From: Prevotella sp.
GTDB lineage: Bacteria; Bacteroidota; Bacteroidia; Bacteroidales; Bacteroidaceae
Direction of reading: 5' to 3'
Assembly: GCA_017428055.1 (NCBI GenBank)
Contig: JAFRRN010000077.1
Coordinates: forward strand, 1 to 64,000
Length of the DNA: 64,000 nt
The notes under the pieces were generated by a model. It was not told the DNA's origin. It made no database searches and was given only the letters and a program-made list of their open reading frames with translations. Of the stretch, positions 36,291 through 57,939 are shown piece by piece. The position numbers and the translations under genes were made by a program. Positions within the stretch are counted from its first letter, which is position 1. Each line of letters starts with the position of its first letter.

Positions 36291-37184
36291 TTAATCATGA
36301 ACGCTTGGAAGGGTCAACAGGAAAGCGGCATGGCATCCATGGCATTGCGCCTCGGCAAGCTCAAGCATACCGCCTTGCTGCACCATCATCCTGCGGCTCA
36401 GGGAAAGGCCTATGCCGCTCCCGCCTCGCTTGGTGGTAAAGAAAGGGACAAAGAGAGACGGGCGGTTTGCGGCAGGGATGGGATGGCCGTCGTTTCCTAT
36501 ATATAGTGTTAGTTGCCCATCATGGGAAGAGCCGCCGGGCGCATCGTCCACCTTCTCGACGACAATCTTTCGCGCCCCGGCTTCCAAGGCATTCTTCACG
36601 ATATTCATCAACACTTGTCGGAGCATACCAGCATCTGCGCGTATGGTGATGTCGTGAGGCACATCGACCTCCCAATCCAACCCAGGATAAGTCCTGCAGA
36701 TGTCGTCAAGCAACGGGCGGAGGGCAACGTTGGCCAGCACAGGCCGCTCCAACTCCGACATTTTTCGGTAATTGGCAACAAACTCATTCAAGAAACGTGA
36801 GGTGTCGCAGATAGCCTGGATGCCTTCCTCAAGCGGCGTACCTCTCACGTCGTTGCGAGCGAGCATTGACTGGCTGATGCTGGCGATGGGGGCAGTGGCG
36901 TTCATGATCTCGTGCGTAAGCACACGTGTCAGCCGCTCCCACGACTCCACCTCGTTCTGGTTCATTTGCCGGCGGATGGTCTCGCCCAGCTGGTTCATCG
37001 TCTGCTGCATGGCACGCTCGCCGGGCAGCAGCCCGTCGGTAGGAAGGCGGAACGTGAAGTCGTGGTTGCGGATGGCCTCCTGCATCAGATGCGCGCGCAA
37101 TTTCAAGGAACGCTGATGGCGCACAAACGCCCAACAGCCGACGACCAGCAATACACCTATTATAATTATAAACAGCCAAGTCAT
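36291..37184 (-). CDS. Sensor histidine kinase of the export locus
   Basis: 297 residues from ATG 37184, which overlaps the regulator stop by 4 bp. One N-terminal membrane helix (about 2-22) with almost no periplasmic part, then a linker, the phospho-acceptor H box (LTHEIMNATAPI), N box (NIVKNALEAGA) and G box (TKRGGSGIGLS). Lack of an outer sensing domain suggests detection within the membrane, as in kinases paired with ABC exporters. Transcribed away from the exporter genes. Confidence 0.88.
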   Translation of the reverse strand: MTWLFIIIIGVLLVVGCWAFVRHQRSLKLRAHLMQEAIRNHDFTFRLPTDGLLPGERAMQQTMNQLGETIRRQMNQNEVESWERLTRVLTHEIMNATAPIASISQSMLARNDVRGTPLEEGIQAICDTSRFLNEFVANYRKMSELERPVLANVALRPLLDDICRTYPGLDWEVDVPHDITIRADAGMLRQVLMNIVKNALEAGARKIVVEKVDDAPGGSSHDGQLTLYIGNDGHPIPAANRPSLFVPFFTTKRGGSGIGLSLSRRMMVQQGGMLELAEAQCHGCHAAFLLTLPSVHD

Positions 37185-37705
37185 AGCCGCCTCATCTTGT
37201 TGTAGAGGGTCTGGCGGGTGATGCCCAGCAACTCGGCAGCCTGGGTGAGATTGCCGTGGCAATGGTCGATGGCGCGGCGGATATGCCCCTTCTCCATCTC
37301 GTCGAGACTGACTATCTCATCCCGCAAGTCGAGTACGTCCCTCAGCTTGCGCACCAATTCATCGTTGTCCCAAGGCTTGGTGATGAAATCAGCCGCGCCA
37401 TTCTTCAATCCCCTTACCGCCAACGAGACGTCTGCGTAGGCGGTCAGCAATACGACAGGGGTCTGGGGATGCTGCTTGCGGATGGTGCGAAGCCAAAACA
37501 ACCCCTCTTGCCCACTGTTCACCCCAAGCGTGAAGTTCATGTCGAGCAACACCAAGTCGATAGGCTGCTGTGCCATTATCTTCAAGATGTCCTCGGGCTG
37601 CGTCGTTGTCAGCACTTGCTCGAAAGTTTCTTCCAACAGATAGCGCATAGCTGTCAGTATGGAAGTATTGTCGTCTACAATAAGTATCGTTCCGTACCTG
37701 TTCAT
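37181..37705 (-). CDS. Response regulator with receiver and Fis-type HTH, no AAA+ domain
   Basis: 174 residues from ATG 37705 (MNRYGTILIVDD). Receiver domain with D-D pair, phospho-acceptor Asp in LVLLDMNF, Thr (LLTAYAD) and Lys (FITKPWD). It connects directly to a Fis-like helix-turn-helix (HGNLTQAAELLGITRQTLYN). NtrC-type regulators have a central AAA+ domain of about 240 residues; it is absent here, as in PrrA/ActR-type regulators. So it should act on sigma-70-type promoters. Probably binds the dyad at 37724, 47013 and 49623. Confidence 0.88.
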   Translation of the reverse strand: MNRYGTILIVDDNTSILTAMRYLLEETFEQVLTTTQPEDILKIMAQQPIDLVLLDMNFTLGVNSGQEGLFWLRTIRKQHPQTPVVLLTAYADVSLAVRGLKNGAADFITKPWDNDELVRKLRDVLDLRDEIVSLDEMEKGHIRRAIDHCHGNLTQAAELLGITRQTLYNKMRRL

Positions 37706-37710
37706 GGATG

Positions 37711-37718
37711 CAAAGTTA
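37711..37718 (-). promoter_or_regulatory. Promoter -7 element of the two-component genes
   Basis: TAACTTTG on the minus strand, only 5 bp before ATG 37705, so the message may be leaderless. A TTTG lies 23 bp upstream (37742-37745), a suboptimal spacing, inside the dyad at 37724-37772. Confidence 0.45.
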
Positions 37719-37723
37719 CCACT

Positions 37724-37772
37724 TTCTGTCAAAAAATCATACAAAGGGGTGTATAATAATTAGACAATCTGC
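37724..37772. promoter_or_regulatory. Dyad operator, copy 1 (tolC / regulator intergenic)
   Basis: CTGTC (37726-37730), AATCATACA, then TTAGACAATCT ending at 37770. The outer half-sites are inverted relative to each other (GAYTGTCTAA versus TTAGACARTC, degenerate on the left here). The distance from CTGTC to GACAATCT is 37 bp, identical to copies 2 and 3. Likely binding site for the adjacent response regulator. Confidence 0.65.
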
Positions 37773-37791
37773 TTCCTATCGATTCCAAATG

Positions 37792-37823
37792 CTTGCATTG
37801 AAAAGAATTAACACCTATTTTTG
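37792..37823 (+). promoter_or_regulatory. tolC-hlyD promoter
   Basis: CTTG (37792-37795), 20 bp, TATTTTTG (37816-37823). The -7 lies 46 bp from the end of the dyad, exactly as at permease 3 and permease 4. ATG of tolC is 24 bp downstream of the -7. Confidence 0.7.
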
Positions 37824-37847
37824 CATCAACAAATACACGAAACGAAC

Positions 37848-39170
37848 ATGAAACAAGCATTGCTAATCCTTCTTGCCTTTGCCACACGGCAGGTTGCCGC
37901 CCAGACATCCTGGACCATGCAACAATGCATACAATATGCCGTGGAACACAACCATGAGGTGAAACGGGCAGAGTTGGAACTTGACAACTACAAAGCTGCC
38001 AAGACCGGAGTCATCGGACGATTCCTGCCATCTGCGGACGCAGGCATCGGGGCGCAATACAGCTTCGGGCGTGCCATCGACCCTGAGACCAACGGCTATA
38101 CCGATGTCAGTACCTTTTATAATGGTTATCAAATATCGGCATCGCTACCCGTTTTCGACGGATTCAGCCGTCTGCATGCGCTAAAGGCAGCCCATGCAAG
38201 TATGCTCATGGGACACCATGCCTTACGCCAAAAACAAGACGAAACAGCCCTTAGCGTATTGCAGGCTTTTACCAATGTGGCATATTACGAAGGACTGGTC
38301 ACGATGGCAGACGAAAAGTTGAAAGAGGCCACCTTGTTACTCAAACAGACACAAACGCTCGAAGAGGTTGGTCGTAAAAGTGCGGCTGACGTAGCCCAAA
38401 TGGAGTCGCAGGAAGCCGAAGCCGAATACGAACTGGCCCGCCAGCGAAACCTACTCGCCTCTGCCCTGCTGGAGTTGAAAAAGACGATGGCTTTCCCAAT
38501 GGGAGACACCTTGTCGCTGTCTGTCAAGAATCATGGAGAGTGGCAGCACGACCCAGGCTTGTGCATAGAACCTACCACCAAGGCTCTCGAACTCAATCCC
38601 GAACTGCAGGCAGCCCGTTACCGTGTGCAGACAACAAAACATGAGTGGCACCAAGCCCGCGCATCCCTTTTTCCCTCTCTCTCTGTAGGCGTAGGCATGA
38701 ACACCACCTATTATAAGACGCTGCACTCTGAAACGGCTGCCTCTTTTGGCAACCAGTTTAAGAACAACATGGGGGAATATGTGAGCTTTACCTTAAGCAT
38801 TCCACTCTTCAATCGCCTACAGACCATTACCAATATCCGTCGTAAAAGAAACGAACACCAAATGGCACATGAGGCTTACGAACAGACACAACTCGAACTG
38901 GAAAAACTCGCTCGCGAGGCTTGGCAAGACTGGCAGGGATTCCTGAAGCAAGCCATCCAGATGGAGAAAAAGGTGGAGGCTGATAGCCTTGCCTATCTGT
39001 TGACACGCAGACAATTCGAGGAAGGCCTGAGTACGGCCATTGACCTACACACAACCTCATCGCAACTGCTTAACTCAAAAGCCACCCTGCTACAATGCCA
39101 ACTGATGGCGATGGTGAAAGAACAATTAGTAAGATACTATCAAGGAGAAACAATATGGACAGAGCAATAG
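37848..39170 (+). CDS. TolC-family outer-membrane efflux protein
   Basis: 440 residues from ATG 37848, giving a signal peptide ending RQVAAQ. Two long helical segments rich in Ala/Glu/Gln (about 130-225 and 330-420) and strand-forming aromatic stretches between match the TolC duplicated fold. It forms the outer-membrane exit channel of a tripartite pump with the membrane-fusion protein that follows (16-bp overlap) and the ABC permeases downstream. Confidence 0.92.
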   Translation: MKQALLILLAFATRQVAAQTSWTMQQCIQYAVEHNHEVKRAELELDNYKAAKTGVIGRFLPSADAGIGAQYSFGRAIDPETNGYTDVSTFYNGYQISASLPVFDGFSRLHALKAAHASMLMGHHALRQKQDETALSVLQAFTNVAYYEGLVTMADEKLKEATLLLKQTQTLEEVGRKSAADVAQMESQEAEAEYELARQRNLLASALLELKKTMAFPMGDTLSLSVKNHGEWQHDPGLCIEPTTKALELNPELQAARYRVQTTKHEWHQARASLFPSLSVGVGMNTTYYKTLHSETAASFGNQFKNNMGEYVSFTLSIPLFNRLQTITNIRRKRNEHQMAHEAYEQTQLELEKLAREAWQDWQGFLKQAIQMEKKVEADSLAYLLTRRQFEEGLSTAIDLHTTSSQLLNSKATLLQCQLMAMVKEQLVRYYQGETIWTEQ

Positions 39171-40408
39171 AAAAGACCAAGGCGCAACAAATGAGGAAAT
39201 ATTGGCCGTACATGGTAGGTGGATGCCTACTACTGGCGGTGCTTTCGTGGGTGGTCTTTGGCAACCATGCCTCGACATTGAAAGTAAACAGGAATGAGCT
39301 GACCATCAGCGAGGTGAGGAGCGCAGAATTCAAAGACTATGTACGCACCAACGGACAGGTACTGCCCATCCAAGTGGTACAGATCTCCCCTGAAGAAGGC
39401 GGCATCGTAATGGAAAAGGTGGCAGAGGAAGGCACAATGGTACGTAAGGGCGATGTCATCGTGCGCTTAAGCAACTCAAATCTCGACCTCCAAATCCTAA
39501 ACGCCGAGGCAGAACTCGCAGAGAAGCAAAACCTACTTCGCAATACCCAAGTGGCGATGCAACAAGACCGACTGAACAACCAGACCGAGCAAGCCCAATT
39601 AGACATGGACACGCAGCGCAAGCAGCGCACCTTCGAGCAGAACAAACGGCTTTACCAAGAAAAGCTCATCAGCCGTGAGGATTACCTCCAGTCGCAAGAG
39701 GATTACCAGCTTTCTTCCAAGAAACGCTCCTTGGTGTCGAAGCGCCTGAAGCAAGACTCCATCTATCGCACGGTACAGATGGACCAGATGGAGGACAACC
39801 TACAGAACATGCGCCGCAACGTGGTGCTCGTCCGCCAGCGCAAAGGCAAGCTCGAAGTGCGTTCCGCCATCGATGGCGAGTTAGGATTGCTCGACGTAGA
39901 GTTGGGACAGAGCATCACTCCCGGCCAGAAGATCGGCCAAATAAACGACCTCTCTGACTATAAAGTCCAGGCGCAAATCGATGAACACTACATCGACCGG
40001 GTGCGACAGGGGCTTACAGCCACATTCACCCGTGGCGACAAGCGGTATCAATTGCAAGTGCGCAAGGTCTATCCGGAGGTGCGCGAGGGCAAGTTCCGTT
40101 GTGACTTCGTCTTCAAAGGCGAGCGTCCCGAGAACATCCGCACGGGCCAGACCTACTACATCGACCTCGAACTGGGCCAACCAGAGCAAGCCGTACTCAT
40201 CCCTCGCGGCACGTTCTTTCAGACCACAGGGGGGCAATGGATTTTTGTTATGGACAAGAGCGGCTCGAAAGCCTATCGCCGCCAGATTCGCATAGGTCGC
40301 CAGAACCCGCAGTATTACGAGGTACTCGAAGGCTTGGAGCCTGGCGAGCGTGTCGTCACCAGCGGCTACGAGGCATTTAAGGACAATGAAGTGCTGGTGA
40401 TTAAGTAA
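39155..40408 (+). CDS. HlyD/MacA-type membrane-fusion protein
   Basis: 417 residues from ATG 39155; a good ribosome site (AAGGAG, 39142-39147) supports this start within the tolC end. One N-terminal helix (about 18-36), a lipoyl-like half (EGGIVMEKVAEEGTMVRKGD), a coiled coil (about 95-230), the second lipoyl half, and beta-barrel domains. It links the inner-membrane exporters to TolC. Confidence 0.92.
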   Translation: MDRAIEKTKAQQMRKYWPYMVGGCLLLAVLSWVVFGNHASTLKVNRNELTISEVRSAEFKDYVRTNGQVLPIQVVQISPEEGGIVMEKVAEEGTMVRKGDVIVRLSNSNLDLQILNAEAELAEKQNLLRNTQVAMQQDRLNNQTEQAQLDMDTQRKQRTFEQNKRLYQEKLISREDYLQSQEDYQLSSKKRSLVSKRLKQDSIYRTVQMDQMEDNLQNMRRNVVLVRQRKGKLEVRSAIDGELGLLDVELGQSITPGQKIGQINDLSDYKVQAQIDEHYIDRVRQGLTATFTRGDKRYQLQVRKVYPEVREGKFRCDFVFKGERPENIRTGQTYYIDLELGQPEQAVLIPRGTFFQTTGGQWIFVMDKSGSKAYRRQIRIGRQNPQYYEVLEGLEPGERVVTSGYEAFKDNEVLVIK

Positions 40409-40528
40409 GGTGTCGATGAAGAAACAAGGCACTAAGGAGGGAGAAAAGACGTAGCAAACAGGGAGGAAACCTATACATAGACGGGAGAAAACCTATATCT
40501 CGCTTGTTTCTGCCAACCGTCCGTATGA

Positions 40529-40548
40529 ATTAGGGCGGTCGCCCTAAT
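40529..40548. promoter_or_regulatory. Palindrome before permease 1
   Basis: ATTAGGGCG-GT-CGCCCTAAT, a perfect 9-bp inverted repeat in the 239-bp gap between hlyD and permease 1. It could form an RNA hairpin that attenuates the downstream genes or bind a regulator. No consensus promoter is obvious in this gap. Confidence 0.45.
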
Positions 40549-40647
40549 CCATCAGAGTGCCCGACCACAATAATGATACCGACCGCCCAAAACCAAGTTT
40601 TATATAATGAAGGCAATACGAACAGAAGAATTAAGCAATATAGAAGA

Positions 40648-43044
40648 ATGAATAGTTATCTGAAATTCCTGAGCCGCCATCGGCTGTTTACCATCATCAA
40701 TATCGTGGGACTGTGCCTCTCGATGGCTTTCCTGCTGCTGTTGGGCGACCTAATCTATCGTCAGACAACGGTAGAGAACTATCAGACACGTGCTGACAGA
40801 ACCTTCGTCGTAGGCAATGAAATGTGCATGATGTCGAACTTTCGCGTTGGCGAGCGGCTGAAAGACCGTTTCCCTGAGGTGGAAGACTGGTGTTCGATGG
40901 CAGGTTACAGCATAACGTTCAGCATCCAAGGCCAGGAGGCTAACACCAAAGTGCTGGTTACGGGTCAGAACTTCTTCACATTCTTCGACTACCCGCTGCT
41001 GACGGGCGATTGCCAAAAGGTGCTCAGTGCGCCCAATCTGATTGTGGTGAGCAAGTCTTTCGCACAGCGTTATTGGCCTGATGAGAGTCCTATCGGAAAG
41101 GAGATGGTACTGGGCGATGAAACAGAATTAGGCGACGCGAACGATGGGAAAGCACGCATCACCTATATCGTCAGTGGCATCATGGACGACTTCGACCGCT
41201 CCATTGTTCCTGACGGATATGAATGCGTATTCAATGTAGAGAACCTTCGCCACTTCCACTACTCGGCCTGGAGCGAGCAGATGGGCAATGCCAGTTGTTG
41301 TGTGTTGTTCCTGATGCAGCGCGAAGGCTGCGACTTGCAGAGCAAGACAAAAGACATGCGCGACTATCTAAAGACTTTTTTCTGGATATACCAGATGGAG
41401 GCAGCAAAAGAACTGACTCTCACCCCATTCTCTACGCTCTATTACGATGCGATGGAATGCTCGTTAGGACAGGAAGACATCAATCACGGCAGTCGGAAGA
41501 TGGCCCGCCTCTATGTAGTTGTTGCCCTACTGGTGTTGGTGTTCGCCATCTTCAACTACGTGAACCTGAGTGTATCGCTCACCACTGAGCGTTCGAAGGA
41601 AATGGCCACAAGGCGACTGTTAGGTCTATCGCGCCTTCAAGTCTTCGGCAAACTGATAGGCGAGAGCATTCTCTTCACGGCGATTGCTTTCATGATAGCC
41701 TATCTGATAGCCATCGCCCTACAAGACAAGGCGATGGAAATGGCCAATTGCCCGTTGGACTTGTTGAAAGATACGGGCGTTACCACCATCATAGCCTTTC
41801 TACTTGGTGTCATTCTCGTTGGCTCATTGGCAGGTTTCGTGCCAGCCACGATACTCAGCGGCTATCAACCCATCGACATCGTTCGTGGCACATTCCGCCG
41901 CCGTGTGCGCCAGCGTTGGAGTCATGCGCTGATGGTGTTGCAGGCCGTCTTCGCCATCGTCATGCTGACTGTCACGCTATTGCTGGGTAACGGTATCCGT
42001 GAGCGCATGAACCGCCCATTAGGTTACGACATCGAAAATATCCTTGAGGCTTGGGACGTTGCTACCCTCAACGAAAGCCAGCGGCAGACATTCCGCAGCA
42101 AATTGCTTGAACTGCCAGAGATAGAGGCTGTTGGCTTCGGCTATGGCACACCCCTTGAGGGGCTGGAAAACCAGACGGTTTCTGCCGATGACGGAACGGT
42201 GGTTAGTATGCGATTTCTGATGGGCGACAGTTGCTTCTTTAACATCTTGAACATCCACCCAGAGAGAACCTACATCGATAAAGGCTTGGGAGCCAACCAC
42301 CAGTTGCTACGGCAATTCGGGAAGCACGATGACGAGAGGAAGATTGTGACAGCCGATGGAAAGGTGAATTTTGAAATAGGAGCCGTTTATCCCGATATCG
42401 TCTATCAGAACGTCATGCGCGAAGAGGAGCATCCTACACCTATTATATATATAAGGGAAGATGAATTCCGCGACAGTATTGATAACTATGCGAGCAGAAG
42501 ATACGGGAAGCCTCGCTTGGGACTAATAAGATATTGTGGTGAGCGTAAGAAGGTGGAGAATGCCATCAAGCGGCAGATTAGTACGCTTACAGGCCGTGAG
42601 GCGGAAGATGTCCACTCGCTCTCCCAGCGTCATCGGGAATGGTACGAAGACTACGAGCGGTTCCTCGACGTGCTGACGGTCTTTACGGTGGTTGCCTTGT
42701 TGATAGCCATCCTTGGCTTGATGGCGATGAACAGTTACTTTGTAGGTCAGCGTCGTCGTGAGATTGCCGTGCGCCGCGTCTTCGGTGCTGAAATCAACAG
42801 TATCACCCTGTGCCTGCTCCGTACCGTCGCCATCCAGTCGCTTGTCGCCGCTGTCATCGCCATCCCTCTCTCCTGCTGGATTGCCCCGACGGTGGGCAGC
42901 ATTTCCGGACTCCGCATCGTGATGCAGCCCCTGCCGCTCGTCCTCTCCCTCCTGATTGTCCTCGCCGTCAACCTGCTGACCGCCACCTTCCAAGGCTGGC
43001 GCGCCGCAACGGAGAATCCAGTCAACAGCATTCAGACAGAGTGA
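40648..43044 (+). CDS. MacB/FtsX-type ABC permease 1
   Basis: 798 residues from ATG 40648 (MNSYLKFLSRHRLFTIINIV); an upstream in-frame ATG at 40573 gives a hydrophilic extension unlike the family. Architecture: N-terminal helix, MacB periplasmic domain, three-helix FtsX domain (about 295-430), helix, second periplasmic domain, second FtsX domain to the end. It is thus a fused pair of MacB-type half permeases without an ATPase domain. C-terminal signature TENPVNSIQTE. Works with the single ATPase at 52443 by inference. Confidence 0.9.
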   Translation: MNSYLKFLSRHRLFTIINIVGLCLSMAFLLLLGDLIYRQTTVENYQTRADRTFVVGNEMCMMSNFRVGERLKDRFPEVEDWCSMAGYSITFSIQGQEANTKVLVTGQNFFTFFDYPLLTGDCQKVLSAPNLIVVSKSFAQRYWPDESPIGKEMVLGDETELGDANDGKARITYIVSGIMDDFDRSIVPDGYECVFNVENLRHFHYSAWSEQMGNASCCVLFLMQREGCDLQSKTKDMRDYLKTFFWIYQMEAAKELTLTPFSTLYYDAMECSLGQEDINHGSRKMARLYVVVALLVLVFAIFNYVNLSVSLTTERSKEMATRRLLGLSRLQVFGKLIGESILFTAIAFMIAYLIAIALQDKAMEMANCPLDLLKDTGVTTIIAFLLGVILVGSLAGFVPATILSGYQPIDIVRGTFRRRVRQRWSHALMVLQAVFAIVMLTVTLLLGNGIRERMNRPLGYDIENILEAWDVATLNESQRQTFRSKLLELPEIEAVGFGYGTPLEGLENQTVSADDGTVVSMRFLMGDSCFFNILNIHPERTYIDKGLGANHQLLRQFGKHDDERKIVTADGKVNFEIGAVYPDIVYQNVMREEEHPTPIIYIREDEFRDSIDNYASRRYGKPRLGLIRYCGERKKVENAIKRQISTLTGREAEDVHSLSQRHREWYEDYERFLDVLTVFTVVALLIAILGLMAMNSYFVGQRRREIAVRRVFGAEINSITLCLLRTVAIQSLVAAVIAIPLSCWIAPTVGSISGLRIVMQPLPLVLSLLIVLAVNLLTATFQGWRAATENPVNSIQTE

Positions 43045-43356
43045 AAGATTCCAAGTTGATTAGTTCTTGAATTATATCAAAATGAACGAACCATATTATG
43101 AAACGTTGTTTAGATTGTTACCCTGTATTTTGTACAAATTTTGGTTTAATTTTGTTCAATTTCTCGCCAAAAGCGATAGATAAAGGGGCGCACAACGTGC
43201 GGAAATTATCCAAAATGGGAATCAAAATTATATCAAAATTTTGTTCAGGCATAGCCCTATATTTTGTTCAAATTTAGTGATAATTTTCGTTCAATTTCTC
43301 GCCAAGGGCGATTCCAATAATAGTTCTTAAATTCTCACAAACTTATAAACTCACAA
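43045..43356. repeat. Leader repeats between permeases 1 and 2
   Basis: Two tandem copies of an AT-rich block (about 43071-43175 and 43220-43315), each with TATTTTGT, CAATTTCTCGCC and a small hairpin TCGCCAAGGGCGA (degenerate in the first). They flank a GGGGCGCACAACGTGCGGAAAT block (about 43185-43215). The same blocks recur at about 49826-49972 before permease 4. The region ends with CTTATAAACTCACAAATG, the start leader shared by permease 3. No gene. Confidence 0.6.
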
Positions 43357-45726
43357 ATGAAGACAATCATCAGAAACTTTACATCGATATTCAGGAAGTT
43401 TGCTGCGGCAAATGTGTTGAACCTGTTGGGCTTGAGCCTGGCCTTTGCCTCATTCTTCGTCATCATGACGCAGGTGAACTACGACTTGGGCTACAACAAG
43501 AGTTTTACGGAGTACGGAAACCTGTATCGCATGACCATGAAGTTAGGGGCTGGTTACGAAGACTATGGCAGAACGCTTCCCCGCCCGGTGGTGGAACGCA
43601 TGGCGGCAGCGTCGCCTCACGTTACGGGCCATGCCGTGATGCAGGGCTGGACTAATATTGACCAGTATATCGTGGGCGAGCAAGAGTTCACGTTGAATCT
43701 GATATATGGAATCCATGATTTCCTCGGCATGTTTAAGCCAACCGTCATTGGCGGTGACTTGAAGGGGTTAAACCAACTGGCTAATATCGTGCTGCCGCGT
43801 TCTGAGGCGATGCGCATATTCGGTACTGCCGATGCGGTGGGCAAAACCATGAAATACAAATGGGACAATGGCTGGCTTTTCAATGTCTGTGCCGTGATAG
43901 AGGACTATCCGGAAAACAACTTCCTGCATGGGGCTTGTTTTATTGGCATTAATTCCAATGAAGACAATTACAACAACTGGAACTATGATGCCTATATACG
44001 TGTGGATGATGCCGCAAATCTGCCGACTGTGCAGAAGGCCTTGCGTAAGACCGCCGTTGAACTCTTCAAGGAAAAGTTTGAATTAACAAAGGAAGAGGAA
44101 GAATCCTTGCAAGTGGTATTTACCAATGTGGCTGATACCCATTTCTCAAAAGTCCTTGACAAATCAGCCCCTGGCAGGAGTTCCGTCTATTTGCTCATCT
44201 GCTTCTCGCTGTTGATTGTCGTGATAGCGGCTGTGAACTTCATGAACTTCACTTTGGCAGAAACCCCTATGCGCATCCGCAGCATCAATACCCAGAAAGT
44301 ATTGGGCGCAACGACGGCACAACTGCGAGGCAGCCTGATGGCAGAGGCTGTGCTAATTAGTCTGATAGCCTTCATCGTGTCGTTAGGATTCGTGTATATC
44401 GCTCATGACTTGGGCTTGCAGCAGTTGGTGCAGGGCAGCATTTTGTTGCAGGACCATCTGCCGCTGATTGGCATCACCCTGCTACTAAGCATCGTGGTGG
44501 GTTTGATGGCTGGTGCCTATCCGTCTTACTACGTCACATCCTTCGCGCCAGCCTTGGTGCTGAAAGGCTCTTTCGGCCTCTCTCCCAAAGGTCGTGTGCT
44601 GCGTACCATCTTGATTTGCTTGCAATTCGTCGGCTCCTTCGTACTGGTCATTGGCGTAGGGATTATGTATTTGCAGAGCTACTTCATCTATCACACCGAC
44701 TACGGCTTCGACAAGGATGAGGTGTTGGTAGTGAGCACGGCACCTGACACGCGTAACAAGGTGGATGCCATCGACTCAGATTTGCGTTCGATTTCCGGCA
44801 TTGATGGGGCAAGCCTGTCTCAGAGCATTCTGGGTAGTAGTGATCGCTATCAGACGTGGGGCAGAGGTAATGGCGACAAACACATGAACTTCACCTGTTT
44901 CTTCGTGGATTGGCGATTCCTCGATGTCATGGGTATCGATATCGTGGAAGGTCGCAACTTCCGGAAAGACGATGGTGATGTGTATATCTTCAGCGAGTCG
45001 GCAAAGAAGCAATACCCTTGGCTCACCGTTGATCAGCCCATTACTGATGACGACTATTCTGTAGTAGGCTTTTGTAAAGACATCAAGTATTCCTCATTGC
45101 GAGTGGACGACAGCCAGCAACCTATCGCCTTCTTTGTCCCCAGTCCGAATGGCAGTTATTGGTATAATGGCTCTTGGCGTAACCACTTGATGGTGCGGGT
45201 AGCCAAGGGAGTGGACAAACGGGAAGCCAAGCAGAAAGTGATGGAGACGGTCAACAAGTACGAGAAAAACCAGCCTCTTGACATCAGCGGACTGCGTTAT
45301 ATGGATGAAGTGCTGGAAAAGACCTACCAGCAGGAAAGCCTCTTTACCAAACAGATTCTGCTGTTCTCGCTGCTCGCCATCCTCATCAGCATGATAGGTG
45401 TGTTTGGCATGACGATGTTCGAGAGCGAATACCGTCGCAAAGAGATAGGCATCCGCAAGGTGTTTGGTAGTTCCACGAAGGAAATATTGACGATGTTCAA
45501 CAGACGCTACCTGTATATCCTGTTGGGGTGTTTTGCGGTGGCGGCTCCTATAGGTTACATGCTGGGCGTGCATTGGCTCGAAGGCTTTGCTGTCCGCACC
45601 GCCATCTCGCCCTTGCTCTTCTTAGTGTCGTTCCTGCTCATCACCTTGATTACCATGCTCACAGTCACCTACCAGAGTTGGAAGAATGCCAATGAAAATC
45701 CTGTCAACAGCATCAAGAACGAATAA
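43357..45726 (+). CDS. MacB/FtsX-type ABC permease 2
   Basis: 789 residues. Same duplicated MacB-FtsX layout as permease 1. The central stretch KGSFGLSPKGRVLRTILICL and the C-terminal NENPVNSIKNE closely match permease 3, showing that these two are the nearest paralogues. FtsX segment ESEYRRKEIGIRKVFGSSTK near 685 is conserved. Start supported by the shared leader CTCACAAATGAA. Exports an unknown amphipathic or peptide substrate by analogy with MacB. Confidence 0.9.
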   Translation: MKTIIRNFTSIFRKFAAANVLNLLGLSLAFASFFVIMTQVNYDLGYNKSFTEYGNLYRMTMKLGAGYEDYGRTLPRPVVERMAAASPHVTGHAVMQGWTNIDQYIVGEQEFTLNLIYGIHDFLGMFKPTVIGGDLKGLNQLANIVLPRSEAMRIFGTADAVGKTMKYKWDNGWLFNVCAVIEDYPENNFLHGACFIGINSNEDNYNNWNYDAYIRVDDAANLPTVQKALRKTAVELFKEKFELTKEEEESLQVVFTNVADTHFSKVLDKSAPGRSSVYLLICFSLLIVVIAAVNFMNFTLAETPMRIRSINTQKVLGATTAQLRGSLMAEAVLISLIAFIVSLGFVYIAHDLGLQQLVQGSILLQDHLPLIGITLLLSIVVGLMAGAYPSYYVTSFAPALVLKGSFGLSPKGRVLRTILICLQFVGSFVLVIGVGIMYLQSYFIYHTDYGFDKDEVLVVSTAPDTRNKVDAIDSDLRSISGIDGASLSQSILGSSDRYQTWGRGNGDKHMNFTCFFVDWRFLDVMGIDIVEGRNFRKDDGDVYIFSESAKKQYPWLTVDQPITDDDYSVVGFCKDIKYSSLRVDDSQQPIAFFVPSPNGSYWYNGSWRNHLMVRVAKGVDKREAKQKVMETVNKYEKNQPLDISGLRYMDEVLEKTYQQESLFTKQILLFSLLAILISMIGVFGMTMFESEYRRKEIGIRKVFGSSTKEILTMFNRRYLYILLGCFAVAAPIGYMLGVHWLEGFAVRTAISPLLFLVSFLLITLITMLTVTYQSWKNANENPVNSIKNE

Positions 45727-45743
45727 AGCTAACGAGTGTTGTT

Positions 45744-45781
45744 CGGGCGAAATCATCCTCTTTTGGGTTAGATTTCGCCCG
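45744..45781 (+). terminator. Hairpin after permease 2
   Basis: CGGGCGAAATC (45744-45754) and GATTTCGCCCG (45771-45781): a perfect 11-bp stem directly after the permease 2 stop, followed by a T-containing stretch. Likely a rho-independent or attenuating terminator separating permease 2 from the ATPase gene. Confidence 0.65.
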
Positions 45782-45814
45782 TATTCTTGCAATACATATA
45801 TAATTTTAGGAACG

Positions 45815-45869
45815 TAATCCAAAAAATCTGGATAAAATTTTGGATTATGCTTTCGGTTTATTAACTTTA
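45815..45869 (+). promoter_or_regulatory. Promoter and overlapping operator of the DUF4143-type ATPase
   Basis: -33 TTTG (45839-45842), 19 bp, -7 TAACTTTA (45862-45869). The 10-bp inverted repeat TAATCCAAAA (45815-45824) / TTTTGGATTA (45838-45847) covers the -33 element, so a bound dimer would block transcription. This gene therefore has its own control apart from the exporter. Confidence 0.6.
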
Positions 45870-45888
45870 CAGCGCAAATTGTAAAGAT

Positions 45889-47022
45889 ATGGAATTAGTA
45901 AAACGAACACTTCAAGAAGTGATTGAGAAGCGGATGTTCAGTGGGAAGGCCATCTTGCTGATAGGGGCACGACAGGTTGGCAAAAGCACCTTGTTAGAAC
46001 AGGTTGTGAAGAATCGGCAGGAGCCTGTGCTTCGTTTGAATTGTGACGAACCAGAAGTGCGGACAATGTTGGAGGCTATCAACACACAGGAGTTACATTT
46101 GCTGATAGGACAGCACCGGATAGTGATGATTGACGAGGCCCAGCGGGTTACCAATATAGGACTGACGTTGAAACTGATTACTGATGGGTTCCCCGATGTA
46201 CAATTGCTGGTCACAGGCTCTTCGTCGTTCCAATTACGCGATGTGGTCAATGAGCCATTGACAGGGCGCAAGTGGGAGTATAACCTGTTTCCCCTCTCTA
46301 CAGGCGAACTTCTGGACGACAGGGGGCTGATAGGTTTGAAGCAGACATTGGAGTCGCGCCTGATATATGGCTCCTATCCCGATGTACTGAATCACTCAGA
46401 CGACGCAAAGGCTGTGCTGACTAACCTGTCGGGCAGTTATCTCTATCAAGACCTTCTGTCGTTGGAAGGTGTACGCAAGCCTGCTTTACTCGAGAAGTTG
46501 TTAGTGGCCTTGGCCTTGCAAGTAGGCAGCGAAGTGTCGTATAACGAACTGGCTCAGACCATTGGTTCAGATACGAAGACTGTGGAGAAATATATCAATC
46601 TGTTGGAGAAGTGCTTTGTTGTGTTCCGTCTGTCGGCTTTCAGCAGAAATCTTAGGACAGAACTAAAGAAAAGCAGGAAAGTGTATTTCTATGACAACGG
46701 CATTCGTAATGCCATCTTGCAGAATTTCACACCGTTGGCATTGCGCACAGACGTGGGGGCACTTTGGGAGAACTTCTTCATCAGCGAGCGGATGAAGTAC
46801 AACCATTACTCGGCCAACTATGTGCGAAGTTACTTTTGGCGGACTACGCTACAGCAGGAAATAGACTATATCGAGGAGCAGGATGGGCAATTCATGGCTT
46901 TTGAGATGAAGTGGAACCCAAAGAAAACTACCGCATCCGTTCCTGCGCCTTTCAAGAAAGAATATCCCCTCAAGCAGTTCGTAGTCGTAACGCCAAATAA
47001 CTATTTAGACTGGACTGTCTAA
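45889..47022 (+). CDS. AAA+ ATPase with DUF4143 C-terminal domain
   Basis: 377 residues. Walker A GARQVGKST (about 26-34), Walker B IVMIDEAQ (about 78-85), and a TGSSSFQL sensor segment. A DUF4143 domain with winged-helix and PD-(D/E)XK-like features follows (EIDYIEEQDGQFMAFEMKWN). These orphan ATPases are common and mobile in Bacteroidales; role unknown. It is unrelated to transport and interrupts the permease array, with its own terminator upstream, its own promoter, and its stop codon inside dyad copy 2. Confidence 0.9.
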   Translation: MELVKRTLQEVIEKRMFSGKAILLIGARQVGKSTLLEQVVKNRQEPVLRLNCDEPEVRTMLEAINTQELHLLIGQHRIVMIDEAQRVTNIGLTLKLITDGFPDVQLLVTGSSSFQLRDVVNEPLTGRKWEYNLFPLSTGELLDDRGLIGLKQTLESRLIYGSYPDVLNHSDDAKAVLTNLSGSYLYQDLLSLEGVRKPALLEKLLVALALQVGSEVSYNELAQTIGSDTKTVEKYINLLEKCFVVFRLSAFSRNLRTELKKSRKVYFYDNGIRNAILQNFTPLALRTDVGALWENFFISERMKYNHYSANYVRSYFWRTTLQQEIDYIEEQDGQFMAFEMKWNPKKTTASVPAPFKKEYPLKQFVVVTPNNYLDWTV

Positions 47023-47061
47023 TAATCATACAGAGAACCGTCAATTTTTTTGACAATCTGC
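47013..47061 (+). promoter_or_regulatory. Dyad operator, copy 2 (permease 3)
   Basis: GACTGTCTAATAATCATACA (from 47013) and TTTGACAATCTGC (to 47061). CTGTC to GACAATCT is 37 bp. The left half overlaps the stop of the ATPase gene. Immediately downstream a hairpin (CATCCGCC...GGTGGATG) lies between dyad and promoter. Confidence 0.7.
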
Positions 47062-47080
47062 ATCCGCCGATGCCTAAAGC

Positions 47081-47112
47081 ATTGGTGGATGTATTTTATT
47101 GGCGTAACTTTG
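47081..47112 (+). promoter_or_regulatory. Permease 3 promoter
   Basis: ATTG (47081-47084), 20 bp, TAACTTTG (47105-47112). -7 begins 46 bp after the end of the dyad's GACAATCT. Leader of about 57 nt with repeated CTTATAAACTCA units before ATG 47177. Confidence 0.7.
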
Positions 47113-47176
47113 CAGAGAGTTCTTGGGGTCTCACAGGCTCACATTCTTATAAACTCATAAACTTATAAACTCACAA

Positions 47177-49564
47177 ATGAAAGAAGTATTGAGAAATGTC
47201 TGGTATATGGCGCGCCGCTTCAAGATGGCGACGGCGCTGAACTTCGCAGGGCTGGCGGTGGCCTTCGCCTCCTGCTATTTGTTTCTGACGCAAGTGGTGT
47301 ATAACCATTCTTATAATAAGGGGCTGGCAGACAGTGGGAAGCTCTACCGCGTGGAGACACCGGCCATGTTGGACCACGGCAAGTGGCAGTCGATGGTGAA
47401 CCGTTTCCTTGCCGAGCAGCTTGACTCGATGCCGCAGGTTGAGGGCATGGCCCTGTTTGAGAGTTGGAACTGGGACATGCGGTTTGCCAAGGAAGGCACG
47501 GAGTTCACGTTCAGTGGCTGCAACGTCAGTTACGATGCCCTGACGACGCTTGCCCCACGGGTGCTGGACGGGAAGGTCGGCTGGTCGGATGACGACCACC
47601 GGGGATTCATCCTGCCCGCGTCCATCGCCATGAGGTATTTCGGCACCACGCAGGCAGCAGGCCTCCATCTATGGAATGGCAAGGACAGCATCTTGGTGAG
47701 GGGCGTCTTCGAGGACTTCCCTGAGAACTGCTTTGCCAGGAACTGCATCTACGGCCATATAGGCGACGAGAACAAGGGCAACTTCCAGAACTTCAACTAC
47801 AACTGCTACTTGAAGCTCAGGCAACCCTTGGACGTGGAGCAAGTGAGACATACCATTTTGGACCCGCTGTTGGAGCGAATCCACCAAATGTACATAGAAC
47901 ATGGCTATGAGGACCAATGGGATGAGGCAGATACAAGAGAACGCCTCAACCTACGGCTGGTACCCGTCACGGAGACGTGGTTCTCGGGCGTGGATGCTGG
48001 GCAGGACAGAGGCAACAAGGCTGTTGACCTGATTCTGCAACTGTCGTGCCTGTTGGTCATCATCATCGCCGCCATCAACTTCCTGAACTTCACGTTGGCA
48101 GAGAGCCCCATGCGCATCAAGAGCATCAACACGCGGCGCGTACTGGGAAGCACCGTCGGACAACTGCGCCTCGGATTCGTGGCTGAGACGGTCTTCACTT
48201 CGCTGCTGGCCTTTGGCCTGTCTGTAGGCATCTGCTACCTGTTGTCGCAGTGGCCGCCCATCAACGACCTGGTTGTAGGCAGCATTGCGCCCAGCCATCA
48301 CGGCATGCTATTGGCAGCCCTTGCCGTCGCTGCCGTCTTGGTGGGCATCGTGGCGGGTCTCTATCCGGCTTTCTACGTCACCTCGTTCCAGCCCGCATTG
48401 GCACTGAAAGGCTCTTTCGGCCTTACGCCCAAGGGTCGAAGGCTACGCACGGCATTGCTCTGCTTGCAATTCCTCATCACCAGCATCATGGTGGTCTATA
48501 TCGGCATCCTCTGCCTACAGAGCCACTACATCTTCAATTCTGACTATGGCTTCGAGAAGGATGAAATCCTGTATTGCGATACGTGGGAGATTCTTGACAG
48601 GCAAGACGCCTTGCGCTCAGAGTTGATGCAGCAGACGGGCGTAACGGACGTGGCCTACTCGCAATTCACGCTTGGCACATCCGACAGTTATATGACGTGG
48701 GGACGTGGCGACAAGGACCATGAAGTGCATTTCGTCGCCCTGCCCGTAGACTGGCACTATCTGCGCACGATGGGCATTGAGGTCGTCGAGGGGCGCGACT
48801 TTACGGAGCACGATGGCGACTGCTATATCATCAACGAGGCCGCCCGCAAGAAATGGGACTGGGTGGAGATGGACAAGAAGCTGTTAGACACCGACGAGTC
48901 AATGACCGTTGTCGGCGTGTGCCAGAATGTGCGCTTTGGCTCTACCCGTGTTGACAACAACGACACGCCGATGGTCTTCCTCATTTATGGCGAAAACTAC
49001 CTGAGCCGCGGATGGGCGAACAATCTCGGCATGATGAACGTGCGTGTGGCGGCTGGTGTCGATAAGGTGCAGATGCGCCAGAAGATCAAGGAAACCTGCA
49101 TGAAGCTCGGCGCACAGCACGAGCCAGAGGTCAGGTTCCTCGACCAAGACTTGGAGAATACCTATCAGGATGAGTTCCGCTTCATCCGCCAAGTGATGGT
49201 CTTCTCGTTCATCTGCCTGATTATTACCCTCATCGGCGTGTTCTGCATGACGATGTTCGAGACGGAGTATCGCCGCAAGGAGATAGGCATCCGCAAGGTG
49301 ATGGGTTCCTCGACGCGGGAAATCCTGCTGATGCTCTGCCGTCATTATATCCTGCTGCTCGCCATCAGTTTCATCCTTGCAGCACCCATTGCCTACCACA
49401 TCGGCACCCAATGGCTTCAGTCGTTTGCCGAGCGCACACCCATCCATTGGTGGCTCTTCCCCTTGGCCCTGCTCGCCGTTGCTGTCGTCACCCTCGCTAC
49501 AGTCGTCATCCAGAGCTGGCGTACAGCCAATGCTAATCCCGTAGAGAGCATCAAGACAGAGTAA
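47177..49564 (+). CDS. MacB/FtsX-type ABC permease 3
   Basis: 795 residues, same layout as permeases 1 and 2 and closest to permease 2 (KGSFGLTPKGRRLRTALLCL, then TEYRRKEIGIRKVMGSSTRE, and C-terminal NANPVESIKTE). GC content appears higher than in permease 2. Own promoter with dyad operator. Confidence 0.9.
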   Translation: MKEVLRNVWYMARRFKMATALNFAGLAVAFASCYLFLTQVVYNHSYNKGLADSGKLYRVETPAMLDHGKWQSMVNRFLAEQLDSMPQVEGMALFESWNWDMRFAKEGTEFTFSGCNVSYDALTTLAPRVLDGKVGWSDDDHRGFILPASIAMRYFGTTQAAGLHLWNGKDSILVRGVFEDFPENCFARNCIYGHIGDENKGNFQNFNYNCYLKLRQPLDVEQVRHTILDPLLERIHQMYIEHGYEDQWDEADTRERLNLRLVPVTETWFSGVDAGQDRGNKAVDLILQLSCLLVIIIAAINFLNFTLAESPMRIKSINTRRVLGSTVGQLRLGFVAETVFTSLLAFGLSVGICYLLSQWPPINDLVVGSIAPSHHGMLLAALAVAAVLVGIVAGLYPAFYVTSFQPALALKGSFGLTPKGRRLRTALLCLQFLITSIMVVYIGILCLQSHYIFNSDYGFEKDEILYCDTWEILDRQDALRSELMQQTGVTDVAYSQFTLGTSDSYMTWGRGDKDHEVHFVALPVDWHYLRTMGIEVVEGRDFTEHDGDCYIINEAARKKWDWVEMDKKLLDTDESMTVVGVCQNVRFGSTRVDNNDTPMVFLIYGENYLSRGWANNLGMMNVRVAAGVDKVQMRQKIKETCMKLGAQHEPEVRFLDQDLENTYQDEFRFIRQVMVFSFICLIITLIGVFCMTMFETEYRRKEIGIRKVMGSSTREILLMLCRHYILLLAISFILAAPIAYHIGTQWLQSFAERTPIHWWLFPLALLAVAVVTLATVVIQSWRTANANPVESIKTE

Positions 49565-49622
49565 AGCGACTCCGAAATCATAAAGGTTATTGATTCTCGT
49601 ATAGAAAAGCAATTTTTTCTTT

Positions 49623-49671
49623 GACTGTCTAAAAATCATACACTTAACCGTTTAATTATTAGACAATCTAC
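49623..49671 (+). promoter_or_regulatory. Dyad operator, copy 3 (permease 4)
   Basis: GACTGTCTAAAAATCATACA (from 49623) and ATTAGACAATCTAC (to 49671). The arms GACTGTCTAA and TTAGACAATC are inverted copies with one mismatch. CTGTC to GACAATCT is 37 bp, as in copies 1 and 2. It is the most complete copy. Confidence 0.72.
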
Positions 49672-49690
49672 ATCCGCCAGGGTCAAAAAC

Positions 49691-49722
49691 CTTGGCGGAT
49701 TTGTTTTATTGAGGTAATTTTG
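49691..49722 (+). promoter_or_regulatory. Permease 4 - ATPase promoter
   Basis: CTTG (49691-49694), 20 bp, TAATTTTG (49715-49722). The 46-bp offset from the dyad is conserved. The resulting leader of about 320 nt is unusually long. Confidence 0.68.
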
Positions 49723-50048
49723 CAATGAGTTCTTGAGTTGATTAGTTCTTGAGTTCTCACAAACTTATAAACTCACTAACAAACCTGCTGAAAATGGAAG
49801 ATAATTAAAAATGAAGAATGCGGAAAGGGGACGCACTACGTGCGGAAATTCTACAAAATTGGAATCAAATTTATATCAAAATGAATGAACCATACTTTGG
49901 AACGTTGTCTTGGTTTTTGCCCAGTATTTTGTACAAATTTTGAAATTTTTTTGTTCAATTTCTCGCCAAGGGCGATTTCCTACCCACGGGCGGAAACACT
50001 GTTCCGCCCCTACAAGCCCAAACTTATAAACTTATAAACTCACAAAAT

Positions 50049-52403
50049 ATGATTAGTGCAATTAAGACATTAAACAAGCGGGGACAGCATAATTGGACGA
50101 AGATCCTGTGCATAGCCGTAGGACTGGCCGTAGGTGTCGTGCTATTGGGAAAGGTGGGCTTCGAGCAGTCGTGGGATGACTTCTTCCCCACGAGCAACCG
50201 CATCTGTGTGGTGTGCGAGGATATTATCCGCGATGGTGAGTACAAGCATTTTCCGCAGACGGCGGGAGCCATTGCCCCAGCCCTGAAACGCTACTGTCCG
50301 CAGGTGGAAGCCGCCACGCGCTACACGGCCTTTGCTGGAGACATGCCCATCGTGACAGACGACGACAAGCGGGTGCGCACCAACTATGCCCTCGTTGACA
50401 GTTGTTTCTTCGACGTGTTCCCCTTCCGAGTGCTGGCAGGTAATGCAAAGAAGACGCTCAGCCAAGTGGACTATTGCATGATTCCCCGTTCACTTGCCGA
50501 GAAGTTGGGCGGTGACATCATTGGCAAGAAGGTTTGGTATAACAAGCGTGGCGGATGGGCGTTGACCGTTGGCGGCATCTACGAGGACATACCGCTGAAC
50601 TCCAAGTTGCATGGCATGGAGGTGATGGTCAGTATGCCGACGATTACCAAGATTATGTGGGATGGTCGCGAGAACTGGTTAGGCAACGACCGCTATGAAG
50701 GATATGTCCGTCTAACTGATGGCATCAGCCCGGACGACTTGAAACCGCAGATTGAGAAGATGAAGCAGGAGAAACTACCTTTGGACGAACTGAAGAAGGC
50801 GGGCGTGGATATGGGATTCTCATTGCAGCCGCTTATCGACTATCATTCAAACGATGAGGGCACACGCCGGATGACATGGATTCTCTCGCTGCTGGCAATA
50901 GTACTCATCGGCTGTGCCGTGATGAACTACCTACTTCTCGTCATTGGCGGCATCAGCCAACGTGCCCGTGAGATGGCAGTCCGTCAATGCTATGGTGCCG
51001 ATGCCCGCCATATATATAATAAGGTGATGGCAGAGAGCGTCGTCCACCTGTTATTGTCGTTGGCTTTGGCAGCCCTATTGCTCTATGTGGCGAAGGACAC
51101 TGTGGAAGATCTCACGGGGGCATCGCTGCCGACGCTGCTGACAACGGGCAGCAACGTGGGGATGGTTGCGGCGACGTGTCTTGTCGTGCTGCTCATCACA
51201 GGTCTCGTGCCAGGCTATATCTACACCCATATCCCTGTAGCCGCTGCCTTCAAGAACTACAGCCAGAGCCACCGCCTGTGGAAACTCCTGTTGTTAGGCC
51301 TACAGTTTGCCTCGGCGACATTCCTCATCGTCCTGCTGATGGTGGTTGGTCGTCAATACAAGATGATGGTGAATGATAATCCGGGCTACGACTTCCAAAC
51401 CCTGGGTATATTAGACACCAATGATCTCTCGGGCAAACAGAGACAACTCATTATGGACGAATTGCGTAAGTTGTCAACAGTGGAAAGCGTGACAATCTCA
51501 TTTGCCAACCTAACCAAATATCAGAGCGGCGACAATATCTATCTCCCAGGTGATGACCATGAATATATGAACATTGCCGACCTTTACTTCGTTGGTGATG
51601 GCTACTTCAACGTGATGGGCATCCCCGTTATCTCTGGCCGGACTTTTACGGAGCAGACCGATACACTCTGCGAGGTGATGGTGAGCAGGAGGTTTGAGGA
51701 GCGCATGAAGGAGTTAGCTGGTTGGGAGCGAGCTGTAGGCAAACAGGTTATTGTTACATCATTCAGCAAGCAGCATACCATTGTTGGTGTCTACGAAGAC
51801 CCCCGAATAGGCAGTATCGCCAATCCTGATACTCGCGGCAGTGTTTGCTTCTACAGTAAGAACACGGACTTGATGGCGAATATCCTCATTCGCTTCCATA
51901 CGATGGATGGGCTTGATGACGCTAACAAACGGCTTAAGGAAGTGGTTCCCGACAATCCTGACATAACCATCTACCCATACAGTCAGATGATGACAGAACT
52001 TTATACCGATGCCCACCGCTTCCGCACCACCGTACTCATCGGTGGCCTGGTGGCACTGATCATTGCACTCATCGGACTCATCGGCTACCTCGCGGGCGAG
52101 ATTGGTCGCCGGCAGAAAGAGATCGCCATCCGTAAGGTGAACGGCGCAAAAATAGCCGACGTGCTCCGACTGTTCCAGACAGACATCTTGCGCGTTGCGC
52201 TGCCAGCAACGGCAATAGGAGCCTTCGCATCCTGGTATGTCGCCCGCCTGTGGTTGGAGCAATTCAGTGAGAAGACACCATTGCTGCCGATACTCTTTAT
52301 TGTCGGTGCCCTGCTGGTGATTGCCATCATCCTGGGTGTTGTATGGCTCGGCTGCTATCGCGTCGCCTCCAGCAATCCCATTGAATATCTCAAATCAGAA
52401 TAA
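50049..52403 (+). CDS. MacB/FtsX-type ABC permease 4
   Basis: 784 residues, the most divergent of the four (N-terminus MISAIKTLNKRGQHNWTKIL, C-terminus SSNPIEYLKSE), with the same fused MacB-FtsX layout and the conserved segment REMAVRQCYGADARHIYN. The ATPase gene follows after 39 bp, so both are in one transcript. Confidence 0.9.
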   Translation: MISAIKTLNKRGQHNWTKILCIAVGLAVGVVLLGKVGFEQSWDDFFPTSNRICVVCEDIIRDGEYKHFPQTAGAIAPALKRYCPQVEAATRYTAFAGDMPIVTDDDKRVRTNYALVDSCFFDVFPFRVLAGNAKKTLSQVDYCMIPRSLAEKLGGDIIGKKVWYNKRGGWALTVGGIYEDIPLNSKLHGMEVMVSMPTITKIMWDGRENWLGNDRYEGYVRLTDGISPDDLKPQIEKMKQEKLPLDELKKAGVDMGFSLQPLIDYHSNDEGTRRMTWILSLLAIVLIGCAVMNYLLLVIGGISQRAREMAVRQCYGADARHIYNKVMAESVVHLLLSLALAALLLYVAKDTVEDLTGASLPTLLTTGSNVGMVAATCLVVLLITGLVPGYIYTHIPVAAAFKNYSQSHRLWKLLLLGLQFASATFLIVLLMVVGRQYKMMVNDNPGYDFQTLGILDTNDLSGKQRQLIMDELRKLSTVESVTISFANLTKYQSGDNIYLPGDDHEYMNIADLYFVGDGYFNVMGIPVISGRTFTEQTDTLCEVMVSRRFEERMKELAGWERAVGKQVIVTSFSKQHTIVGVYEDPRIGSIANPDTRGSVCFYSKNTDLMANILIRFHTMDGLDDANKRLKEVVPDNPDITIYPYSQMMTELYTDAHRFRTTVLIGGLVALIIALIGLIGYLAGEIGRRQKEIAIRKVNGAKIADVLRLFQTDILRVALPATAIGAFASWYVARLWLEQFSEKTPLLPILFIVGALLVIAIILGVVWLGCYRVASSNPIEYLKSE

Positions 52404-53270: not shown

Positions 53271-53328
53271 CACCGTGAAACTGAAATAATCCTAATTTAT
53301 CATGTTTAATAACTTAAAACTTTCTGAA

Positions 53329-57855: not shown

Positions 57856-57939
57856 GGCATATTAACGGCGTTTCGTACACCCACAACCCCATTTCATACA
57901 ATGGGACGTGGCAAACACGGAATTAGTCAATAGATTACA

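Follow-up and report, generated by a model that had tools for sequence, protein, structure and literature searches.

Tandem-repeat modules of a Prevotella exporter locus are likely sites of an adjoining NtrC-type regulator that lacks its ATPase motor

Analyzing a 64,000-nucleotide stretch of Prevotella sp. DNA (assembly GCA_017428055.1, contig JAFRRN010000077.1, positions 1 to 64,000 of the forward strand; hereafter the window), we found three regulatory modules in a locus that encodes an FtsX/MacB-type exporter and an adjoining two-component system. These modules are probably the sites of the adjoining response regulator, which resembles NtrC-type activators of sigma-54 but has no ATPase motor. 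Comparison of related loci suggests that the motor was lost once, that the paired enhancer repeats were kept, and that the promoters came under the housekeeping sigma factor, a reading that we hold with good confidence. Full-length relatives of the regulator in Bacteroidota, encoded near related exporters, go with tandem repeats of this kind too, but there the promoters are of the sigma-54 class, as judged by sequence.

Module architecture and conservation

An earlier note on this DNA had described three copies of a dyad, and all three lie where it placed them. A 45-bp block, CTGTC-N32-GACAATCT, occurs at 37726-37770, 47015-47059, and 49625-49669 and nowhere else in the window; CTGTC and GACAATCT start 37 bp apart in every module, and the gap from the end of GACAATCT to the -7 element (TATTTTTG, TAACTTTG, and TAATTTTG in copies 1, 2, and 3) is 45 bases, or 46 by the count of that note. 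The -33 element, NTTG (CTTG, ATTG, and CTTG in the same order), ends 20 bases ahead of -7, and all three copies read TAnnTTTG at -7. Two parts of the earlier description have to be revised. What it took for a single 49-bp dyad is a pair of tandem 17-bp inverted repeats, whose outer arms it had joined; the repeats start 23 bp apart, and the second ends 49 bp ahead of the -7 element. The modules are also alike rather than identical, with four of the six GAYTGTCTAA arms exact and the left arm of copy 1 and the right arm of copy 2 degenerate. A single arm is found at chance level (nine matches with at most one mismatch in the window versus 6.25 expected). According to a study of Bacteroides, promoters of its sigma-ABfr carry TAnnTTTG at -7 and TTTG at about -33 (PMC7366714). 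The modules share this -7 element, whereas their -33 element is mostly CTTG and not TTTG.

In the 4.2-Mb assembly (93.57% complete), a 44-base pattern with 27 fixed positions has exactly three matches at up to three mismatches, all in the exporter locus, while the reversed control pattern has none. For comparison among species, a position-specific scoring matrix (PSSM) was built from 10 modules; its own seeds score 55.9 to 66.2, and its maximum on mononucleotide-shuffled sequence (1.26 Mb, one strand) is 0.85. The matrix was run over the loci of the 80 best among 528 relatives of the regulator, most of them named as Prevotella, Prevotellaceae, or Xylanibacter and many of them from rumen samples. 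It found 126 modules, with every one of the 80 named loci positive. TAnnTT[TC]G follows the 44-bp core at an offset of 45 in 119 of these modules, 44 in one, and 46 in two; it is absent from the expected place in four, of which those of L079 and L080 have a near match and those of L092 and L117 score low. The 80 loci are not independent, since one identical module is common to L056, L060, L062, L066, L067, and L070, and L085, L111, and L126 are likely the seed loci L044, L045, and L050.

Whole-genome scans found modules in 4 of 201 family genomes and in 3 of 60 genomes of relatives (G000, G209, and G231), which have short regulators matching at 100, 83, and 86%, respectively; the only other genome with a regulator match above 80%, G224, has a contig end that cuts off the regulator and the region to search.

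Removing identical modules and selecting for a -7 element at exactly 45, though not for any -33 element, left 108 unique modules, among them the three of the window. In these, the TTG of the -33 element is conserved at 86, 94, and 91% per position; conservation extends over the repeats, -33, and -7, whereas the spacer is variable at most positions. The consensus of the block is TGTCTAAAAATCATACR, six variable bases, and TGTCTAATTTTTAGACA, followed by TCTGC, an A tract, CTTG, 20 bases, and TAACTTTGCA. One arm of the first repeat, TCATACR, is divergent and yet strongly conserved itself, being nearly invariant across the 108. This downstream arm of dyad 1 differs from the half-site of the window clade, TTAGACA, and resembles TGTATGATTATCATACA of the short-regulator loci L158 and L161; dyad 1 is perhaps a weak or asymmetric site kept by selection. 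In L049, a module at 10102 (G010:C6), with its -7 element at the same offset by eye, stands ahead of a permease gene, and the regulator is on another contig (G010:C2, L151), making this module a possible unlinked target.

Modules 2 and 3 contain a terminator-like hairpin whose 3' arm includes the -33 element (ATTG and CTTG, respectively). These are the longest and second-longest stems in a terminator scan of 37600-50100, and module 1 has no such hairpin (-2.0 kcal/mol, z 0.36). Across species, 43 modules do not adjoin the regulator, and 32 of these reach folding energies of -10 kcal/mol or lower, compared with 42% of their mononucleotide shuffles (means, -16.9 versus -9.3); of the 65 modules beside it, 14 do so, compared with 13% of shuffles (means, -7.4 versus -6.4). 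The hairpin looks like a terminator of the preceding unit, placed between the enhancer and the promoter of the next.

Absence of the AAA+ domain and the class of promoter

The window regulator scores 86.1 bits with the receiver family PF00072 and 57.4 bits with the Fis-type helix-turn-helix (HTH) family PF02954, and a Pfam search found no AAA+ family in it, PF00158 included. In an alignment of seven short and four full-length forms, the short ones show a clean gap where the others have the AAA+ block between receiver and HTH, and D55 and K110 are invariant in all 11. Both full-length relatives tested, L051 and L194, have PF00158. The regulator resembles NtrC-type enhancer-binding proteins in its receiver and Fis-type HTH, which belong to the same subfamily, an adjoining histidine kinase, and paired 17-bp repeats, of the same kind in the Bacteroidota full-length relatives, and differs from them in lacking the whole AAA+ domain and in having promoters of the -33/-7 and not the -24/-12 class, by sequence. 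ActR/PrrA/RegA redox regulators likewise combine a receiver with a Fis-type HTH and no AAA+ domain. However, the window regulator stays under the cut-off of their model NF033791 (68.1 versus 250 bits), and beyond its own clade the receiver has its nearest matches in frames 437 to 521 codons long, which are of the full-length NtrC type where read. One copy of rpoN is kept in the genome, which also encodes, away from this locus, one strong sigma-54 activator (215.9 bits); five more matches, at 21.8 to 35.3 bits, have a strength typical of AAA proteins generally, since all 14 control genomes match too.

The start codon of the kinase gene overlaps the stop codon of the regulator gene (ATGA). Kinase frames, measured from stop to stop, are often about 300 aa long beside short regulators and often 380 to 490 aa beside AAA+ regulators, with exceptions both ways (L138, L144, and L156; L180, L181, L183, and L192). 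The sensor part of the kinase may have been trimmed too.

To compare the two forms, related loci were collected with the HlyD adaptor as the anchor, which matches in 90 of the 201 family genomes at an E value of 1e-60 or better. Sixty of the first 63 adaptor match rows, together with the window, L044, L045, L048, L050, and L051, make 66 loci, of which 25 have a short regulator, 25 have an AAA+ regulator, and 16 have no regulator on the stretch. In the short class, a script found tandem repeats of period 23 with the -7 element at 48 to 50 in 21 of 25 loci and a sigma-54 site at the matching offset in none of 25 (best score, 2.2 in the 21 loci scored). In the AAA+ class, by contrast, it found tandem repeats (period 21 to 23) with a sigma-54 -24/-12 site 53 to 55 bp downstream, scoring at least 10.7, in 16 of 25 loci, and the -7 layout in none of 25. 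Among the 16 loci without a regulator on the stretch, 10 have sigma-54 sites (at 54 to 56 bp), four have neither kind of promoter, and two, L163 and L190, can be read either way, their exporter promoters showing a -24 TTTGG as well as TAnnTTTG at exactly offset 49. Short regulators also occur beside another, smaller transporter in L046 and L047, again with period 23 and the -7 element at 49.

In rooted phylogenetic trees based on receiver and HTH, the short forms make up one clade among AAA+ forms. This clade takes up 33 of 61 rows with support of 100/99 when L028 and L032 serve as the outgroup, L170 is in, and L053/L029 are out, with the bootstrap incompletely settled. It takes up 32 of 64 rows with support of 97/99 in a second tree that leaves out L170 and L053, yet retains the L053 protein as L029 and has three added rows that duplicate L051, L052, and L055. 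The AAA+ row L178, cut by a contig end, is in no tree. Nearest to the short clade in the 64-row tree are the AAA+ rows L193 and L194, and L194 and L195 already have period 23, with the sigma-54 site at 54. The loss of the motor and the change of promoter class therefore appear to lie on the same stretch of the tree.

Several results weigh against this picture. With both changes on one stretch of the tree, the contrast of 25 with 25 loci does not amount to 50 independent tests, and it was by the regulator or the module, rather than by the adaptor, that L044, L045, L048, and L051 entered the survey. An initial tree, in which the outgroup row L053 was very long and L170 was present, did not recover a single short clade; it required two changes, with one in 24% of its bootstraps. 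The script did not settle four short loci: L140 and L141 show the -7 element at 49 with a looser cut, the module of L174 lies just beyond the searched stretch by eye, and L165 has one clear repeat, a degenerate second dyad, and, by eye, a -7 element at 48. Nine AAA+ loci have no tandem found by the script, and their sigma-54-like sites (10.5 to 17.8) lie somewhere upstream. A position-free sigma-54 measure separates the classes incompletely, since 3 of 25 short loci reach at least 10.0, namely the window (10.0, inside the start of the outer-membrane factor gene), L144 (10.5), and L170 (15.1, upstream of the dyads). The half-site does not change strictly in step with the recognition helix, as L046 and L047 keep the N of LYNK with arms TGTATGA. 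Finally, the terminator scan of 37600-50100 shows no overall excess (11 sites versus 11.8 in shuffles), and a strong hairpin is lacking in 11 of the 43 modules that do not adjoin the regulator.

Proposed mechanism and alternative explanations

We propose that the regulator descended from a sigma-54 activator of the NtrC type after loss of the ATPase motor. With the transcription start taken, by convention, as a few bases past -7, the centres of the repeats fall near -70 and -93, positions from which activators such as CRP contact the C-terminal domain of the alpha subunit of RNA polymerase. From this geometry we infer that two phosphorylated regulator dimers would bind side by side at these positions and directly recruit the housekeeping (sigma-ABfr) polymerase, probably through that domain. 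The exporter would be switched on without sigma-54 and read as three units, with the hairpins of copies 2 and 3 ending the preceding unit. Motor and promoter class would have changed in a single event basal to one clade, with the enhancer retained. The earlier note had named the adjoining Fis-type regulator as the natural binder and had divided the exporter into three units; the cross-species comparison supports both, the regulator being the predicted binder.

The same binding would have a second effect at module 1. The -7 element of the regulator gene lies 8 bp past the outer end of dyad 1 and 5 nt from the ATG (37703-37718), and a leaderless or nearly leaderless mRNA is predicted for this gene. 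Since dyad 1 overlaps this promoter, regulator bound at the first repeat of copy 1 would repress its own gene. The arrangement recurs in unique segments of relatives, where, in 51 of 62, TAnnTT[TC]G starts 8 or 9 bp past the outer end of dyad 1. The ATG is 21 to 22 bp from the dyad in 28 of 62, and in these the mRNA would again have almost no leader.

A bolder version, which we regard as rather doubtful, is that the sigma-54 circuit was converted in place: excision of the AAA+ domain would have turned a looping enhancer into a rigid direct-contact site, and the TTTG of the -7 element would have grown from the TTTGG of the -24 element. The positions lie within a few bases of each other, with TTTG at 53 to 56 after the repeats in one class and TGG starting at 53 to 56 in the other, and the promoters of L163 and L190 can be read as both types. 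Only 2 of 28 script-found sigma-54 loci have an overlapping TAnnTTTG, however, which we judge to be no more than composition could give, and the origin of -7 from -24 is a conjecture.

The regulator could instead act mainly as a repressor at all sites and be released by phosphorylation, as the repressor-like position of dyad 1 on its own promoter would suggest. We consider this improbable, since the exporter repeats lie about 60 to 100 bp upstream, as in the full-length relatives, whose family activates from such positions, and since the -33 element is off-consensus (CTTG, not TTTG), as expected for activator-dependent promoters. A still less probable explanation is that the permease genes were duplicated with their upstream DNA, so that the spacing is identical for that reason only and the modules need not function. 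Copies 2 and 3 have the hairpin and flanks in common and could indeed be paralogous, but copy 1, ahead of an unrelated gene, has the same spacing without a hairpin, the 108 unique modules keep their elements amid mostly variable spacer, and more distant short-regulator loci keep 23 bp and 48 to 50 bp although their repeats differ in sequence. Had only the three copies been compared, which may be duplicates, their exact spacing would be no proof of function, and it is for this reason that the cross-species data matter. The view of the earlier note that the spacing shows a working activator site holds in part: the comparison supports a regulator site about 60 to 100 bp upstream of the -33/-7 promoter with a spacing that is rigid across species.

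Sigma-54 activation requires an ATP-driven motor, and the promoters might still be of this class, with the regulator borrowing the AAA+ motor of another activator. The genome does have rpoN and one strong activator elsewhere, and TTGGCGTAACTTTGCA in copy 2 resembles a -24/-12 element. However, GG and GC stand one base too close together in copies 2 and 3, TAnnTTTG is kept at one offset, and the best score at relevant offsets is at most 2.2 in 21 short-regulator loci versus at least 10.7 in 16 AAA+ loci. We therefore rejected a sigma-54 reading of copies 2 and 3 on spacing and scores and give the borrowed motor very little credence. Equally remote is another DNA-binding protein at the repeats, since short and full-length members of the regulator family alike are accompanied by repeats of the same geometry and none of the 60 relatives has close modules unless it also has a close regulator. 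Two further candidates were examined. LytTR-type repeats (an ACCGT-like core in copies 2 and 3) were dropped, as this stretch corresponds in other species to the downstream dyad's variable arm, and an enteric sigma-70 scan gave 8 sites versus a shuffle mean of 12.5, no excess.

Exporter genes and significance of the proposed promoter switch

The features of the locus are listed in Table 1. Models of the darobactin-type exporter DarBCD (NF038007, NF038008, and NF038010) give 299.4, at most 88.6, and 218.7 bits against cut-offs of 375, 700, and 450, none above cut-off. The stop codon of the AAA_14/DUF4143 gene lies within dyad 1 of module 2, and among the 66 labelled loci only the window has this gene. 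Directly 3' of the exporter ATPase gene, a 1254-aa open reading frame (53302-57066) has no Pfam match and is a candidate for an exporter-linked role; a 1542-aa protein (57908-62536) has BspA-type leucine-rich repeats and a dockerin type I domain, with a cohesin match below cut-off. The features that go beyond the earlier note are the absence of the AAA+ domain, the full-length relatives with sigma-54 promoters behind similar repeats, the hairpins in copies 2 and 3, the overlap with the regulator promoter, and the DUF4143 gene.

Table 1. Positions of the modules and genes in the window
Feature	Coordinates	Strand	Basis
Sensor histidine kinase (HATPase_c)	36291..37184	-	PF02518, E 2.8e-14, searched as 36291-37190
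Response regulator, 174 aa, receiver + Fis-type HTH (HTH_8)	37184..37705	-	PF00072, PF02954 above cut-off
Regulator gene -7 element TAACTTTG	37711..37718	-	sequence; relatives' segments
Module 1 upstream dyad TGTCAAAAAATCATACA	37727..37743	+	sequence
Module 1 downstream dyad TGTATAATAATTAGACA	37750..37766	+	sequence
Module 1 -33 element CTTG	37792..37795	+	sequence; offset conserved in 108 unique modules
Module 1 -7 element TATTTTTG	37816..37823	+	sequence; offset conserved across species
TolC-type outer-membrane factor (OEP)	37848..39170	+	PF02321, E 2.3e-52, searched as 37839-39170; start codon by eye
HlyD-type periplasmic adaptor	39095..40408	+	PF13437; NF038010 DarC 218.7 bits, below cut-off 450
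FtsX/MacB-type permease 1	40573..43044	+	Pfam
FtsX/MacB-type permease 2	43357..45726	+	Pfam
AAA_14/DUF4143 ATPase gene, between permeases 2 and 3	45889..47022	+	PF13635, PF13173
Module 2 upstream dyad TGTCTAATAATCATACA	47016..47032	+	sequence
Module 2 downstream dyad CGTCAATTTTTTTGACA	47039..47055	+	sequence
Terminator-like hairpin in module 2	47059..47093	+	-23.4 kcal/mol, z -4.62, 15 pairs; then TTTTATT
Module 2 -7 element TAACTTTG	47105..47112	+	sequence; -33 ATTG at 47081-47084
FtsX/MacB-type permease 3	47177..49564	+	Pfam
Module 3 upstream dyad TGTCTAAAAATCATACA	49626..49642	+	sequence
Module 3 downstream dyad CGTTTAATTATTAGACA	49649..49665	+	sequence
Terminator-like hairpin in module 3	49672..49700	+	-20.8 kcal/mol, z -5.03, 12 pairs; then TTGTTTTATT
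Module 3 -7 element TAATTTTG	49715..49722	+	sequence; -33 CTTG at 49691-49694
FtsX/MacB-type permease 4	50049..52403	+	Pfam
Exporter ABC ATPase	52443..53120	+	PF00005; NF038007 DarD 299.4 bits, below cut-off 375

FtsX-like ABC permeases in Bacteroidia have been predicted to be under sigma-54 control (PMC12316311); the window encodes the same kind of exporter, and its lineage has likely replaced that control. Enhancer-binding proteins that moved from sigma-54 to the housekeeping sigma factor are known and include NtrC-type proteins without GAFTGA that act at sigma-70 promoters, such as NtrC of Rhodobacter capsulatus and Caulobacter and VspR of Vibrio cholerae (PMC10274813). The NtrC cases described there lose a loop within the AAA+ domain, whereas the window regulator lacks the whole domain, and, unlike in those cases, both states occur here beside related exporters of one family. 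Among the matches listed in a literature search, we found none that describes an NtrC-type regulator of Bacteroidota without AAA+ domain or whole-motor loss with a promoter switch beside retained enhancers, which is no proof of novelty, as most subscription journals lie outside that search.

Within one family, both forms of the regulator coexist beside exporters that are related and enhancer pairs of one kind, and the derived side includes the named strains Prevotella ruminicola KHT3, Xylanibacter ruminicola D31d and Ga6B6, and X. brevis ATCC 19188, making the stages of such a promoter switch directly testable. The analysis also yields a sharp, searchable regulatory motif and an arrangement of enhancer, terminator, and promoter within a gene cluster.

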